A DNA stretch of 64,000 bases from assembly GCF_004761875.1 (NCBI RefSeq), contig NZ_SJEY01000006.1, positions 186,001-250,000 of the forward strand, written 5' to 3'. The translations under genes were made by a program, and so were the position numbers. Positions 31,971-37,045 of the stretch are shown here, piece by piece. The notes beneath the pieces were generated by a model. It was given only the letters and a program-made list of their open reading frames with translations. It did not search any database and was not told where the DNA came from. Position 1 is the first letter of the stretch; each line of letters begins with the position of its first letter. This DNA comes from Roseovarius aestuariivivens. Lineage in GTDB: Bacteria > Pseudomonadota > Alphaproteobacteria > Rhodobacterales > Rhodobacteraceae.

Positions 31971-33143
31971 CTAAACTCCTTCGCGCTCGGCCATACCTCC
32001 CTGCCCACCCAGAAGCCGCGCGTGGCTTTCAAGGGCGAACCGATCGGTCATGCCGGCGATGTAATCGCTGACAAGGCGCGCCAGATCGGAATCTGTCTCT
32101 GCGCGCCGGACATCCTCTTGCCACCGCTGCGGCAAGTGTTCTGGATTAGACATATAGAACGGGAAGAGTTCGTCGACCACTTTCGTCACGCGGTCCCGGA
32201 CCTCCATGACTTTGGATGCACGGTACATGTGACTGAACAGAAATGAGCGAATCTCGTTCACGTCCCGCGCCATCTGATCGGAAAACGCGATTACAGGCTG
32301 TCCAAGGTTGCGAATGTCGTCGACCGTCTCGGGACAAGCTGCCTCGAGTCTGGCCCGAGAAGTCTCAATGATATCCCCGACCATGTCGCCGAAGACGCGC
32401 CGCAGCGCTTCGTGCCGCCGTCTATAGGGGTCCAGCCCGGGATAAAGGTCCTCGACCGCATTGTAACAGGGTCCGACGACCGGCAGCACACGAATATCCT
32501 CTTCCGTGAACAGCCGGGCGCGCAAACCGTCGTGCAGATCGTGGTTGTTATACGCGACATCGTCCGCCAGGGCCGCAACCTGCGCCTCTGCACTGGCATA
32601 AGTACCAAGCTCAAGATCATGCCGCGCATTGTAAATTTCCAGCGCATAAGGCAGCGCGCCGATCACAGGACCGTTGTGCTTTGCCAGTCCCTCCAGCGTA
32701 TCCCAAGTCAGGTTCAGACCGTCGAATTCAGCATAATGCCGCTCAAGCGACGTAACGATCCGGATCGCCTGAGCATTGTGATCGAACCCGCCATAAGGTG
32801 CCATCAGCCGGTCGAGTGCGTCCTCGCCGGTATGTCCGAACGGCGTATGGCCAAGGTCATGCGCCAAGGCCACGGCCTCGGTCAGTTCCGCGTTCAAACC
32901 GAGCGCGCCGGCAATGGTGCGCGCGACTTGCGCCACTTCTATGGAATGCGTGAGACGCGTCCGAAAATAATCGCCTTCGTGCTCGACGAAAACCTGCGTC
33001 TTGTGCTTGAGCCTTCGGAAGGCACTGGAATGGATGATACGGTCCCGATCACGCTGATAGCAGGAGCGGAACGCACTCTCTTCCTCCTCCGTCAGGCGGG
33101 GCCGCGCGTGCCGCGGATTTGACGCATAGCGCTGCTGGTTCAC
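31971..33143 (-). CDS. dgt: dGTPase-like HD-domain triphosphohydrolase
   Basis: A 390-residue member of the type 2 deoxyguanosinetriphosphate triphosphohydrolase-like family. It shows the conserved entry RDRDRIIHSSAFRRLKHKTQ, the first His in RLTHSIEVAQ and the HD pair in ALAHDLGHTPFGHTGE. A final Asp lies in ADDVAYNNHD. It hydrolyses dNTPs to nucleoside and triphosphate in dNTP-pool control. I chose GTG 33143 with AAGGCAGG upstream, because the frame beyond it overlaps the divergent erpA gene. Confidence 0.92.
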   Translation of the reverse strand: MNQQRYASNPRHARPRLTEEEESAFRSCYQRDRDRIIHSSAFRRLKHKTQVFVEHEGDYFRTRLTHSIEVAQVARTIAGALGLNAELTEAVALAHDLGHTPFGHTGEDALDRLMAPYGGFDHNAQAIRIVTSLERHYAEFDGLNLTWDTLEGLAKHNGPVIGALPYALEIYNARHDLELGTYASAEAQVAALADDVAYNNHDLHDGLRARLFTEEDIRVLPVVGPCYNAVEDLYPGLDPYRRRHEALRRVFGDMVGDIIETSRARLEAACPETVDDIRNLGQPVIAFSDQMARDVNEIRSFLFSHMYRASKVMEVRDRVTKVVDELFPFYMSNPEHLPQRWQEDVRRAETDSDLARLVSDYIAGMTDRFALESHARLLGGQGGMAEREGV

Positions 33144-33230
33144 GATTTGCGGCCTGCCTTGCCTTGTGGCCTTGTCCCAACGCTCATATATTCCAGGCCG
33201 TTGAGGAAGCAAAGCGTCAGGAAATAGGTT

Positions 33231-33554
33231 ATGCAACTGCCTCCGAAAGTAACCGAACGCGCGTTCGAACGTCTCGCCGAGATTGGCGCGGGCTCTGACG
33301 GTCAGGCCTTGCGCGTCGCTGTCGAGGGCGGAGGATGCTCGGGGTTCCAATATGATATTCGTCTCGACACGCCGGCCGAAGACGATCTGATCCTTGAAAG
33401 CCAGGGTGAAAAAGTCGTTGTCGACAGTGTCTCGCTGCCGTTTTTGCAGGGCGCGGTCATTGATTTCACCGAAGAGTTGATCGGCGCGCGCTTTACCATC
33501 GACAATCCCAACGCCACCAGTTCCTGTGGCTGTGGCACGTCTTTTTCAATGTAG
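33231..33554 (+). CDS. erpA: ErpA, A-type iron-sulfur cluster insertion protein
   Basis: The product is 107 residues of the HesB/IscA/ErpA family. The three cluster-ligating cysteines are Cys36 (GGGCSGFQY), Cys99 and Cys101 (SSCGCGTSF). It carries Fe-S clusters from the scaffold to apo-enzymes. No isc or suf genes are adjacent. It is divergent from dgt across 87 bases and convergent with the DMT exporter. Confidence 0.93.
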   Translation: MQLPPKVTERAFERLAEIGAGSDGQALRVAVEGGGCSGFQYDIRLDTPAEDDLILESQGEKVVVDSVSLPFLQGAVIDFTEELIGARFTIDNPNATSSCGCGTSFSM

Positions 33555-33560
33555 AGCCCG

Positions 33561-34466
33561 TTACTCGGCCGGTACTTGCGCTGCGGTTGACCGCGGGCTC
33601 GTTTCGTCCAGCACCAGCCAGACACCGGCAGAAACTACGAGCAAGGCCCCGATCAGAACCGGCGCGCCGGGCATCTCTCCGAAAAATATGGCGCCGAGCA
33701 GAACCATCCAGACGAATTGCAGGTTCATCAGCGGCGTAACCACGTAGGCCGGAAGCGCACGCAACGCTGCAACCAAGACCCACCTGGCCATAAAAAGAAG
33801 CAGCGCATAAACTACGGCCCATCCCAAGTCGGTCAGCGGCATTGGCCGGTACACGAACGGAAGTACCAAAGCCATTGTCAGCATCAGAGCGAGGTTAGGA
33901 TAGAATACCTGAACCAGAAGCCCTTGGTCTCTCTGGCCGATATAGCGCGAAGCGACCATGGACACGGTACCCAGCATCACCGCGAGCAAGGCCATACCAT
34001 GTCCCATGGTAAACGCACCGAAACCGGGCTGAAACAGGCACCCGACGCCGAGTACGGCAACCCCTAGCGCACACCAAGCCTGCGGGCGCACCCTTTCGGA
34101 TAGCACCGGGCCGGACAGAAGCGCCGCCATCAGCGGGATGAGCGCAATGAACAAGAATACGTCCGCAAAAGGCAGAAGCTGAAACGCGTAAAAAAACGCG
34201 ATGGTGCCAAGCACGGTGGCCACCGCACGGACCGCCATGGCTTTGGGGCAGGTTGTATGTAGACCAAGTGACCTGCCGCGCCGGTCCCGATTGGCCAAAA
34301 GGCAGAACAAAACGACCAGGCCACCCGACAGCGCAAATAGTTGCGGTGGCGCATAATTGGCCGCGAACTGCTTGGTGATCGCATCAGCGCCCGAAATCAG
34401 CAGTGTGTAGAGGGCCGTCAGGGCGACGCCGCCGATCACGGCGCCGGGGATAGTGGCATGTTTCAA
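33561..34466 (-). CDS. DMT-superfamily (EamA) transporter, last gene of the FTSSL operon
   Basis: The product is 301 residues with ten predicted helices in two EamA repeats (VLGTIAFFYAFQLLPFADVF in the first; PAYVVTPLMNLQFVWMVLLG in the second). This family mostly exports small metabolites, amino acids or peptides. It starts with TTG that overlaps the upstream stop as TTGA, so it is translationally coupled to the 361-residue gene. It is the most likely export function in this operon, but no substrate can be read. Confidence 0.85.
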   Translation of the reverse strand: MKHATIPGAVIGGVALTALYTLLISGADAITKQFAANYAPPQLFALSGGLVVLFCLLANRDRRGRSLGLHTTCPKAMAVRAVATVLGTIAFFYAFQLLPFADVFLFIALIPLMAALLSGPVLSERVRPQAWCALGVAVLGVGCLFQPGFGAFTMGHGMALLAVMLGTVSMVASRYIGQRDQGLLVQVFYPNLALMLTMALVLPFVYRPMPLTDLGWAVVYALLLFMARWVLVAALRALPAYVVTPLMNLQFVWMVLLGAIFFGEMPGAPVLIGALLVVSAGVWLVLDETSPRSTAAQVPAE

Positions 34467-35548
34467 CGCAAACCCCCAAAGTCTTGGCCGGGCTGGGCGG
34501 CACGGGCGAAGCCTGCGAAAAACGCTTCGAAATCGACCGCTTTCTCAGCTACATCCACCACCGCGAGTGCTTCGTCTGATAGTGTTTCACCAAGACGGTC
34601 GCGCATACGATACCAGTCCGCACACCGCACACCATCTTGCGCAAGCAAGCCTTCCGACAATTCCCGCAGGGGCGAGACATGTGGACGCGGCGCGCGGAAG
34701 CAAATCGGCCCCTCGGGGATCTGCGCACCAAATCCGCCCTGACCGGCAACCGACAATGCCCAGTTCACCATCAGGTACGGATGGTAGTCATCCTGTGCCC
34801 ATCCCAACTCGCCCGCTTCGACAACGAACCGACGCGCCTGGGAAAAAAGCCAGTCTTCCCATTCGAATGGTGGCGTCTCACCCGCAAAACGCAGGGCGAT
34901 GCAGAATTCCGACAACAGATCAGTGTTCAGCTCAAGGAATGCAAGCGTTCCGGCATGAAGAAGGCTTGCGACAGTACCCGGGGCAAGATCCGGCATCGCG
35001 CGACCATATTCGGACAGGTAAAAAACGATGTGGGTCAGTTCGTACGCCGCTTTCTTATTCGGAAGTGCGAACGTCTCTTTTTGCGAAGCAAATCGGCGCA
35101 GTCGCGTGTCAAGAGCACCGTCCCCGTTAACTGGGTCAATACCGCGGCGAAGGCAAAGCCGTCGCGCTTCGGCGCGCTGTAGGTCGGACAGTTCGGCTGT
35201 AACCAGACCCTGCTTTGCGACCCACGCAACGGCTTCCTCGCCTTTCCCGCCAGGCAGTCCAAGGTCCTCCAGATCGAGGCACAGTGACAACAGGAAGCGG
35301 TAGTACTGAGGAAAAAAGCCGAGGCGCTTTTCAAAATCACCGTAGAATGCCTCAAGTGGAGCAAGCGCGAAATCATCGAGCTTGGCGTTGGTGCAATCCA
35401 GCAGATTTAGCAGTTCGGCATTTTCCTTAAGCCAGAACACATCATTGTCCACGCGGCGTTCCTGCGCAAAACGCTGGATCATGGCCGATTTACGCGCCGC
35501 AGGAGTGGTTTGGCGGAACGGAACGTCAAGGTGAAGAACGGATCCCAT
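34463..35548 (-). CDS. Uncharacterised 361-residue protein, middle gene of the FTSSL operon
   Basis: A soluble, mostly helical protein with no signal peptide or membrane segment. Noticeable features are FFPQYYRFLLSLCLDLEDLG, RRLCLRRGIDP, KKAAYELTHIVFYLSEYGR and WALSVAGQGGF. The pattern of long helices with Glu/Asp/Tyr/His-rich stretches could suggest a carrier or metal-dependent fold, but I see no known motif and assign no function. An AGAAAGG ribosome site precedes the ATG. The repeat-protein gene lies 42 bases upstream and the DMT gene overlaps its stop, so the three form one operon. Confidence 0.8.
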   Translation of the reverse strand: MGSVLHLDVPFRQTTPAARKSAMIQRFAQERRVDNDVFWLKENAELLNLLDCTNAKLDDFALAPLEAFYGDFEKRLGFFPQYYRFLLSLCLDLEDLGLPGGKGEEAVAWVAKQGLVTAELSDLQRAEARRLCLRRGIDPVNGDGALDTRLRRFASQKETFALPNKKAAYELTHIVFYLSEYGRAMPDLAPGTVASLLHAGTLAFLELNTDLLSEFCIALRFAGETPPFEWEDWLFSQARRFVVEAGELGWAQDDYHPYLMVNWALSVAGQGGFGAQIPEGPICFRAPRPHVSPLRELSEGLLAQDGVRCADWYRMRDRLGETLSDEALAVVDVAEKAVDFEAFFAGFARAAQPGQDFGGLR

Positions 35549-35590
35549 ATCACTGACCTTTCTTTTGAATTTCCATTCCGCCGGAAGCGC

Positions 35591-35941
35591 TCAGAGGCTA
35601 GAAGTGAACATCTGCACCGCATCACCTGCATCGCTTTGCGCGGCACGGACCGGGCCGAGGCTCGAGGTGAAAAGTTCTACGGCGTCGCCTTCCGTTCCGC
35701 TGGTTGCGGCACGCACCAAGCTCGAGGTATACATCTCGACCGCTTCACCGGTCGCGATTTCGGTTGAACGCGGTGTAAGGCTCGAGGTGAAAAGACCGGC
35801 CGCGTCGCCGTCCATAATGTCGGATCCGGCGCTCGGCATAAGCGATGACGTGAACGCCTCGACAGCAGTCCCGTCATGAAGGTTTGCAAGCGGTGCAGAA
35901 GCAGTATCGTGGAAGGTCTTGATCTTGAGGTTCGAGCTCAT
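35591..35941 (-). CDS. Small protein with five FTSSL repeats (candidate precursor or scaffold), first gene of the operon
   Basis: A 116-residue protein. A 23-residue non-repeated lead (MSSNLKIKTFHDTASAPLA...) is followed by five copies of G[DET]A[VA]x[LMA][FY]TSSL. The FTSSL motifs begin at residues 30, 51, 71, 91 and 112 (spacings 21, 20, 20, 21), and the protein ends exactly on the last FTSSL. It has no Cys, no signal peptide and no membrane segment. CGGAG lies 7 bases before the ATG. A modular repeat that terminates at the C-terminus, followed by an unknown protein and an exporter, is reminiscent of multi-core modified-peptide precursors. That is inference; a cytoplasmic scaffold is an alternative. 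Confidence 0.8.
   Translation of the reverse strand: MSSNLKIKTFHDTASAPLANLHDGTAVEAFTSSLMPSAGSDIMDGDAAGLFTSSLTPRSTEIATGEAVEMYTSSLVRAATSGTEGDAVELFTSSLGPVRAAQSDAGDAVQMFTSSL
35594..35875 (-). repeat. Coding array of five 60-63 bp repeats (GDAVExFTSSL)
   Basis: On the + strand, CTCGAGGT recurs at 35661, 35721 and 35781, exactly 60 bases apart. The two outer units are spaced 63 bases and have diverged. Synonymous codon differences between units (TTC ACC TCG AGC versus TTC ACG TCA TCG) indicate that the peptide, rather than the DNA, has been conserved. Confidence 0.75.
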
Positions 35942-36262
35942 TGGAGCACTCCGTTTAAGGTTAACAGTTCCAAAACGGTTACACGCTATGCGGGTTTTTC
36001 CAAGGTAGTTTTCTCGCTTAAGAATTATCCACAAAGCTATGCACACCCCGGTTCCGGCCCGCCGGTCCTGAATTGCGGATCGCCCACTCAGATTTCCACA
36101 GGGAGAAAAAATGTTATCCCCAGATGCTCTCAACTCATTTCGAACGGTTCGCGCGAGTTCAAATTAAGAAATCAACCTTAAGATGATTCGCCTGAAGCAA
36201 CTTCTCGCCTCTTGCCTAAGCCGCCGCGCTGCGCGACAAGACACCAACGACGGGAGACAATC
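35942..36262. other. 321-base divergent spacer between the FTSSL operon and xth, with DnaA-box-like sites
   Basis: No gene is seen. It is more AT-rich than its surroundings at 36010-36050 and 36155-36190. Four 9-mers resemble the DnaA box TTWTNCACA: TTATCCACA (36025-36033, perfect), CTATGCACA (36037-36045), ATTTCCACA (36092-36100) and TTATCCCCA (36114-36122), the last three with one mismatch each. Promoters for both flanking genes must lie here, but I could not find hexamers I trust. Confidence 0.5.
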
Positions 36263-37045
36263 ATGAAAATCGCCAGTTTCAACATCAATGGCATTAAGGC
36301 CCGTTTGCCCGCTCTGACCGACTGGTTGGACGAGGCGCAACCCGACATCGCGCTTTTGCAAGAGATCAAATCTGTGGACGACGGGTTTCCGCATGAACCA
36401 TTCGAGGACCGCGGATACCACGTGCATACCCACGGTCAGAAAAGCTTCAACGGGGTTGCGATCCTGTCAAAATCCCCGCTCGAGGACATAAGCCGCGGAC
36501 TGCCCGGCGACGACGAGGATGAGCAGGCCAGATGGATCGAGGCGACTGTCGTGCGTGACAAAGCCGCCTTGCGGATCTGCGGGCTTTATCTTCCGAACGG
36601 CAATCCCGCCCCTGGGCCAAAATACGACTACAAACTCGCATGGATGGACCGTATGCGCGCCCGAGCGCAGCAGCTTCTGGACGCCGAAGAGCCGTTCTTG
36701 ATGGCCGGTGACTACAACGTCATCCCTCAGGACGAAGACGCCAAGCGACCCGAAGCTTGGAAAGAAGATGCGCTTGCCCTGCCCCAAAGCCGCGCCGCGT
36801 TCCGCCGTCTGCTGCACATGGGTTTCACCGAGGCGTTCCGCGCAACGATCACGGCGGGCGGGCATTACACATTCTGGGATTATCAGGGCGGAGCGTGGAA
36901 CCGAGACGACGGCATCCGCATCGACCATTTCCTTCTTAGTCCGCAAGCCGCCGATCACATGACCGGATGTGGCATCGACAAGGAAATCCGCGGACGGGAA
37001 AAGCCGTCGGATCATGTACCGATCTGGGTCGAAATGGATATCTGA
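36263..37045 (+). CDS. xth: Xth, exodeoxyribonuclease III
   Basis: A 260-residue AP endonuclease / 3'-5' exonuclease of the ExoIII family in base-excision repair. It starts MKIASFNINGIKARLPAL with the metal-binding Glu in LLQEIKS. Further motifs are the Asp/Asn pair in AGDYNVIPQDED and the terminal catalytic segment RIDHFLLS with SDHVPIW. The ATG at 36263 follows CGGGAGA. Confidence 0.95.
   Translation: MKIASFNINGIKARLPALTDWLDEAQPDIALLQEIKSVDDGFPHEPFEDRGYHVHTHGQKSFNGVAILSKSPLEDISRGLPGDDEDEQARWIEATVVRDKAALRICGLYLPNGNPAPGPKYDYKLAWMDRMRARAQQLLDAEEPFLMAGDYNVIPQDEDAKRPEAWKEDALALPQSRAAFRRLLHMGFTEAFRATITAGGHYTFWDYQGGAWNRDDGIRIDHFLLSPQAADHMTGCGIDKEIRGREKPSDHVPIWVEMDI

Follow-up and report, generated by a model that had tools for sequence, protein, structure and literature searches.

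A repeat precursor, a DUF6902 protein and a putative exporter in Roseovarius aestuariivivens: a candidate multi-core peptide pathway

What does a short protein built of five almost identical pentapeptides do beside a protein known only by its domain of unknown function (DUF) and a putative exporter? The question is raised by three adjacent genes, all on the minus strand, in a stretch of 64,000 nucleotides from Roseovarius aestuariivivens (the "window"; contig NZ_SJEY01000006.1, positions 186,001 to 250,000). The answer favoured here, with a probability of about 0.6, is that this cassette encodes a multi-core pathway akin to those of ribosomally synthesised and post-translationally modified peptides (RiPPs), and that its DUF6902 protein is most likely a peptide epimerase. 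The cassette is composed as follows.

35591..35941 (stop included), minus strand: repeat precursor P0001, 116 residues, with five [FY]TSSL cores and a 29-residue lead before core 1
35840..35854, minus strand: core 1, FTSSL
35777..35791, minus strand: core 2, FTSSL
35717..35731, minus strand: core 3, YTSSL
35657..35671, minus strand: core 4, FTSSL
35594..35608, minus strand: core 5, FTSSL, the C-terminus of P0001
34463..35548, minus strand: DUF6902 protein P0002, 361 residues, putative peptide-modifying enzyme (best guess epimerase), from Pfam, alignments and a predicted model
33561..34466, minus strand: putative exporter P0003 of the EamA/DMT (drug/metabolite transporter) family, 301 residues, TTG start, from Pfam EamA

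The repeat precursor and its cores

The initial annotation described a 116-residue protein with five units 20-21 residues apart, the last forming the exact C-terminus, and the translated open reading frame (ORF) bears this out: [FY]TSSL starts at residues 30, 51, 71, 91, and 112 (spacing 21, 20, 20, 21). Two such units never arose in 100,000 shuffles of P0001. Four of the units read FTSSL and the third YTSSL, and the element ahead of the first unit is GTAVEA, which is not of the G[DE] type. Core codons vary at synonymous positions, with the residues unchanged. The 361-residue protein does follow after a gap of 42 bases, and its TGA stop does overlap the TTG start of the exporter. The label "uncharacterised" given to that protein is superseded, as it belongs to the named Pfam family DUF6902 (PF21843; E 3.4e-142, 473.9 bits against a cut-off of 27, residues 1-350 of 361). 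The precursor itself has no match above cut-off in Pfam, NCBIfam, or PADLOC, nor do its relatives in Pfam (five tried) or NCBIfam (three tried), and an Rfam scan of window positions 33000-36600 gave no match.

The precursor family was followed across 162 DUF6902 loci, namely the window, 79 more loci from the same taxonomic family, 80 loci from named records (the best 80 of 384 relatives, many from Roseovarius and other Rhodobacteraceae), and the loci L208 and L209. Reduced by identity of the DUF6902 segment, these yield 145 distinct loci, 143 of which carry a repeat precursor ahead of DUF6902 and in the same orientation (identified by eye in L060, L094, and L100; some divergent arrays comprise just two units). 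The median distance between the two genes is 67 bases (140 measured), with three values above 150 bases in L042 (346), L064 (197), and L104 (153). The N-terminus of the relatives keeps a signature near M-[TSN]-A-[LQ]-x-K, read as MSSNLK in the window, with A at residue 3 in 97/126 precursors and K at residue 6 in 99/126, the start codons having been placed by script. This N-terminus may act as a leader. In each array unit, a pentapeptide core follows a G[DE]xxxx-type element. Arrays hold a median of six units (range 2 to 20; 134 arrays), a low count since the unit pattern misses odd units and sees four of the five in the window; the core statistics omit 11 of the 145 loci, which have no array, a gap, or an array too odd for the pattern. 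In 104/134 arrays, the window's included, the protein ends exactly with its last unit.

Thirty-six kinds of pentapeptide occur across the 134 arrays, for example FTSGS, FSSGS, FTSSL, FTSGL, FTSWS(GP), FVSWS, and FITSC. Position 1 is F in 131/134 and position 3 is S or T in 131/134, whereas positions 2, 4, and 5 are variable, position 4 being G in 65/134. Odd cores read by eye include MMCCS, MMSCS, and LSPSC. A search with an FTSSL-type repeat expression finds no match in the relatives L003-L032 because their cores differ. Two variants stand apart: in L102, a single DUF6902 gene is preceded by two different repeat ORFs, one with FTSGS-type and one with FGSSC units, and the arrays of L208 and L209 are made of STSSF units, with the hydrophobic residue at the opposite end of the core.

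Within an array, the cores are held far more tightly than their surroundings. Across 130 arrays (15 of the 145 loci are left out of this set), cores differ at 0.072 nonsynonymous vs 0.542 synonymous differences per site, a ratio (pN/pS) of 0.13, and the spacers at 0.434 vs 0.603, a ratio of 0.72; the element before the core lies at 0.41. Selection therefore maintains core identity beyond what recent copying alone would explain, given a low pN/pS beside 0.54 synonymous differences per site. Units match the commonest form of their own array at 97%, a figure somewhat flattered by the pattern, and between arrays at 57%. Between species the core switches, with at least 51 changes on a quick tree of 80 DUF6902 proteins, in which 45 of 77 inner branches are unresolved and 13 core labels were set by hand (the alignment leaves out the split gene of G181 and the fragment of G139). 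Cores containing W cluster on this tree, with 7 changes of core class vs 18.2 in shuffles (0/200 as low). A gene-encoded precursor with a putative leader and conserved cores, as expected of a RiPP, is thus found in the family, from its presence in 143/145 loci, its N-terminal signature, and the selection on its cores.

This turnover bears on the alternative raised by the initial annotation, that the repeats are docking or scaffold sites and that DUF6902 binds several unmodified units in a structural or regulatory role. One would expect such a motif to be stable across species, yet the pentapeptide has changed at least 51 times while remaining uniform within arrays. That alternative, which we consider quite unlikely, is taken up again below with the evidence on the partner protein.

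Linkage and joint loss of the three genes

The gene coupling of precursor and DUF6902 is well supported. DUF6902 is present in 82 of 295 sampled genomes of the window's family, and a precursor profile two units long (A2) matches 76 of the 295, 75 of which carry DUF6902 (Fisher p 1e-60 for the raw table 75/1/7/212). The seventy-sixth, G046, was discarded as a precursor without DUF6902, its match (E 2.8e-4) being weak and partial, in a long frame with a stop and not in an array. Repeats widespread without their partner, the outcome that the initial annotation had named as damaging to a pathway, were accordingly not encountered in this sample with a profile built from known arrays. Seven DUF6902 genomes have no A2 match: G139 holds a fragment, four have divergent cores (YIAGL in G041, MMCCS in G099, MMSCS in G264, and LSPSC in G283), and no array is visible in the remaining two, G288 (locus L092) and G039 (locus L106). 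Across the class, DUF6902 passes the cut-off in 4/385 sampled genomes, all four from the window's family; a match below the cut-off in G896, from another family, was not counted. A candidate modifying enzyme is therefore encoded with the precursor, the link between them being genetic.

The two arrayless loci are informative in their own right. Among 80 DUF6902 proteins, the conserved H173 and D210 (numbering of P0002) are both absent solely in L092, which carries R173 and S210, and in L106, which carries Q173, L210, R214, and T256. These are also the two precursor-less loci of the 80, a coincidence with a chance of 1 in 3160 for residues picked after the alignment had been seen. L092 looks like a joint decay of precursor and enzyme residues, because it sits on an ordinary branch among array-bearing proteins. 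L106 has 24-25% identity and a long branch. D/E180 and Y255 are less telling, since they are lost in some array-bearing proteins as well (e.g., L057 and L103). Conserved polar residues are thus missing from both arrayless partners, which weakens the case for docking; the strict pairing of precursor and DUF6902 would fit binding equally well, whereas the presence of an exporter in the cassette would not be expected of a docking system.

This exporter is linked less strictly. An EamA gene like that of the window directly follows DUF6902 in 62/80 loci. The cassette is flanked on one side by a gene of the endonuclease/exonuclease family (Pfam Exo_endo_phos), presumably xth, and on the other by an iron-sulfur (Fe-S) biosynthesis gene, which we take to be of the HesB/ErpA type, and then by an HD hydrolase gene. 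In the window, the interval between the exonuclease and Fe-S genes holds the three cassette genes and nothing else. Thirty genomes without DUF6902 were sampled at the same place, 20 of which have the Fe-S gene within 1.35 kb, so that the whole interval is seen; neither exporter nor DUF6902 occurs in any of these 20. The other 10 stretches show neither gene but are too short to decide, L254 missing that side entirely. No array is present in the 30 stretches, with a pattern that recovers 136/143 cassette arrays. From the linkage in 62/80 loci and the absence from 20/20 intervals, the three genes tend to be present or absent as a set, at a single site on the chromosome.

Species-specific cores, multi-copy arrays, and an exporter also resemble pheromone precursors, and the frequent core changes would suit such a role. 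The arrays might then give rise to short unmodified peptides, acting as signals or antimicrobials, with DUF6902 as a binding, immunity, or processing partner. This we regard as very improbable: no protease or receptor is found among the five flanking proteins scanned, which belong to the endonuclease/exonuclease, Fe-S, HD hydrolase, GlnE, and antiporter families, and the His/Asp/Glu set of DUF6902 is common to a family in which, by the title of one report, an epimerase is named (see below).

DUF6902 and its proposed chemistry

P0002 also matches a second Pfam family, DUF6895 (PF21836; E 9.5e-21, 74.8 bits, cut-off 23.8), as do 79/80 DUF6902 proteins at E <= 0.001. A profile-profile comparison of the two families (hhalign) gives a probability of 96.6 and E 5.4e-10 over 156 columns spanning H173 to E214. 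Residues common to both families are E119, H173, D/E180 (E180 in P0002), G182, D210, E214, Y255, and H256. Among these, H173, D/E180, D210, E214, and Y255-H256 of P0002 correspond to positions that do not vary among eight DUF6895 proteins, and E119 is nearly invariant in an alignment (A3) that includes P0002 and those eight; within DUF6902, D/E180 is kept in 73/80 and Y255 in 78/80 proteins. The conserved His/Asp/Glu set of DUF6902 may be catalytic. The relevance of DUF6895 lies in Shi et al. 2026 (10.1021/acscatal.5c08590), a work cited in the 2026 review PMC13352647, which by its title names a DUF6895 protein a lasso-peptide epimerase.

Of eight DUF6895 loci examined, from three phyla, seven have a small ORF immediately ahead of the DUF6895 gene (in G398, G474, G635, and G242, and on plasmids of Streptomyces sp. 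NBC_00857, Kitasatospora, and Pseudalkalibacillus). The DUF6895 genes of L205, L206, L207, L210, L213, L214, and L215, from Pseudomonadota, Bacillota, and Actinomycetota, stand right after such ORFs. In the exception, from Streptomyces fungicidicus, a 62-residue ORF is found further upstream, separated by one gene from the first member of a DUF6895 pair; this locus (L216, 3451-8688) comprises a cytochrome P450, the 62-residue ORF, a 231-residue protein, the tandem DUF6895 pair, and a serine hydrolase. Several of the small ORFs display a leader-like LxxSGxxD and an aromatic, beta-branched C-terminal segment, e.g., GYVLAWDKYVLVV or GPWFVLAGDQT, although the resemblance is weak and the eight share no fully conserved column. 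They are perhaps a second precursor family and, as small ORFs directly precede DUF6895 in 7/8 loci, coupling with a small precursor may extend throughout the superfamily. Such coupling, in a family with an epimerase reported by title, speaks further against docking sites. In the order of G398, DUF6895 is found in 1/249 genomes, G398 itself. Subthreshold DUF6895 matches in G370 and G381 were not counted.

The AlphaFold2 model of DUF6902 is confident (mean predicted local distance difference test score, pLDDT, 94.2) and mostly helical, with two short strands. No relative of solved structure is found by sequence, and Foldseek gives no match to the model in the PDB at E <= 0.001. The helical character of the model and the look-alikes among weak Foldseek rows, including armadillo-type repeats in peptide complexes, are what a docking role could draw upon. 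The best VIA-align matches, to drimenol/drimenyl-type terpene synthases (Z 11.9, 230 residues, root-mean-square deviation 4.3) and also to complement C3/C4 fragments, were not used for function because their scores lie within the range that helical proteins reach through a common arrangement.

How would such a pathway operate? The 116-residue protein would be the precursor, with a short N-terminal leader and five pentapeptide cores, and the G[DE]xVxx-type element before each core may serve as a local recognition site for the enzyme. DUF6902 would recognise each unit, work along the array, and modify the core. The chemistry would be alpha-carbon backbone epimerisation of one residue per core, through acid/base catalysis by the conserved His/Asp/Glu residues. 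Backbone chemistry is favoured because the cores have no shared reactive side chain, and epimerisation is the most likely form of it because the DUF6895 relatives include the reported epimerase. Where position 4 is Gly, as in about half of the arrays, it is not the target, and the epimerised residue is likelier to be position 1 (a bulky hydrophobic residue) or position 5. Release of the short peptides by general cell proteases, and their export by the EamA protein, would complete the pathway, both steps being guesses.

The same cassette could use another chemistry. DUF6902 might, for instance, carry out hydroxylation, core proteolysis, or cyclisation within a multi-core RiPP-like pathway and not share the epimerase activity of DUF6895. 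RiPP enzyme families often diversify, P0002 is only 14-21% identical to the eight DUF6895 proteins, the precursors are unlike (profile A2 finds nothing in four DUF6895 genomes), and the lack of a PDB match leaves room for other activities. Conversely, DUF6902 keeps the same polar residues that DUF6895 conserves, and cores such as FTSGA, YIAGL, MMCCS, and LSPSC, with no common reactive side chain, disfavour any side-chain-specific chemistry. On balance this alternative appears rather unlikely.

The multi-core modified-peptide pathway suggested by the initial annotation is well supported by the co-occurrence of precursor and enzyme, core conservation within arrays, joint loss, homology to DUF6895, and exporter linkage; its biochemical part, that is, the modification, cleavage, product, and role of the cassette, is what we infer from the genes alone. 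Several points weigh against it. The exporter is absent in 18/80 loci, and the EamA family is chiefly associated with small metabolites and not with peptides. Profile A2 could miss unlike arrays elsewhere, as it was built from arrays beside DUF6902. In the joint-loss comparison, with its residues chosen after the fact, L106 counts for less because it is very divergent, and only L092 is clean. Finally, the cassette itself encodes neither a protease nor a leader-binding domain nor a further modifying enzyme, a protease elsewhere in the genome not having been sought.

Promoter sites and known systems

The region upstream of the precursor carries two further features.

36025..36033, minus strand: DnaA-box-like site TGTGGATAA (TTATCCACA on the plus strand), 84-92 bases upstream of the precursor ATG
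36114..36122, minus strand: second, imperfect box TGGGGATAA, one mismatch

We take TGTGGATAA/TTATCCACA to be the DnaA-box consensus. The single exact box in the window is not significant alone, and the evidence therefore rests on conservation across loci. The exact box, on either strand, occurs in 77/132 distinct cassette upstream regions (loci among L033-L191), and 68/132 hold at least two boxes in the same direction with at most one mismatch, most often 76 bp apart (28 pairs), then 53 (7). Shuffles that preserve single-base composition only would give exact boxes in ~0.45 of 134 regions, and 29 cassette-less genomes have none on the corresponding flank of the exonuclease gene. With one mismatch allowed, the counts are 95/134 loci vs 10.3 expected, and 1/29 in the controls. 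The 450 bases next to DUF6902, a within-locus control that overlaps the promoter in short intervals, contain the exact box in 7/150, and the genome of the window has 19 exact sites vs 9 for the pattern read backwards. DnaA may thus bind these promoter boxes, which raises the question of why a peptide pathway would listen to it. A bolder proposal, possible though clearly short of probable, is that DUF6902 proteins are iterative epimerases placing D-residues in each pentapeptide, that they make a large, fast-evolving family of short D-peptides in marine Rhodobacterales, and that the tandem DnaA boxes tie production to chromosome replication.

What is new here is a precursor family undescribed within the searches made and an enzyme family whose only name is its DUF number. 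In the literature searched, whose coverage lacks most subscription journals, no title or abstract opening describing this system was found, no paper mentions DUF6902, and DUF6895 appears only in the reference list of PMC13352647 as far as the text available goes. The plasmid and phage collections searched hold no relatives of P0002. The cassette would represent a compact, gene-encoded peptide class with a natural core library sorted by evolution, and it offers a testable function for two domains of unknown function. If epimerisation holds true, one enzyme acting repeatedly on diverse pentapeptides would be a tool for making peptides with D-amino acids.

Among known systems, the FxSxx-COOH or triceptide precursors of actinobacteria have a single core and a radical S-adenosylmethionine (SAM) maturase, and their C-terminal F-x-S-x-x resembles the FTSSL-COOH of the window. 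Membership was considered and set aside: P0001 and P0002 have no NCBIfam match at E <= 1 and the five flanking proteins belong to other families, the maturase not having been searched for genome-wide. Cyanobactin and dikaritin precursors are multi-core RiPP precursors and share with the cassette the plan of one leader followed by many near-identical cores with spacers; their maturase families, however, have no match among the three cassette and five flanking proteins. Closer by homology are the DUF6895 proteins, with the same conserved H, D/E, D, E, and YH and a small ORF ahead in 7/8 loci, from which DUF6902 differs as a separate Pfam family whose precursors string together as many as 20 pentapeptides. 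The epimerase of the lasso peptide MS-271, MslH, for which the dyads His88/Asp91 and His295/Asp11 have been proposed in a two-base epimerisation, has a calcineurin-like fold, uses Ca(II), and targets a single C-terminal Trp, as far as the part of the source consulted describes (PMC10406935), in contrast to the DUF6902 proteins, which are predicted as mostly helical. Its likeness to the cassette is one of proposed logic, with two acid/base groups flipping an alpha-carbon in a precursor peptide (same source), and the two conserved histidines and the acids of DUF6902 would fit such a two-base mechanism, in another fold.

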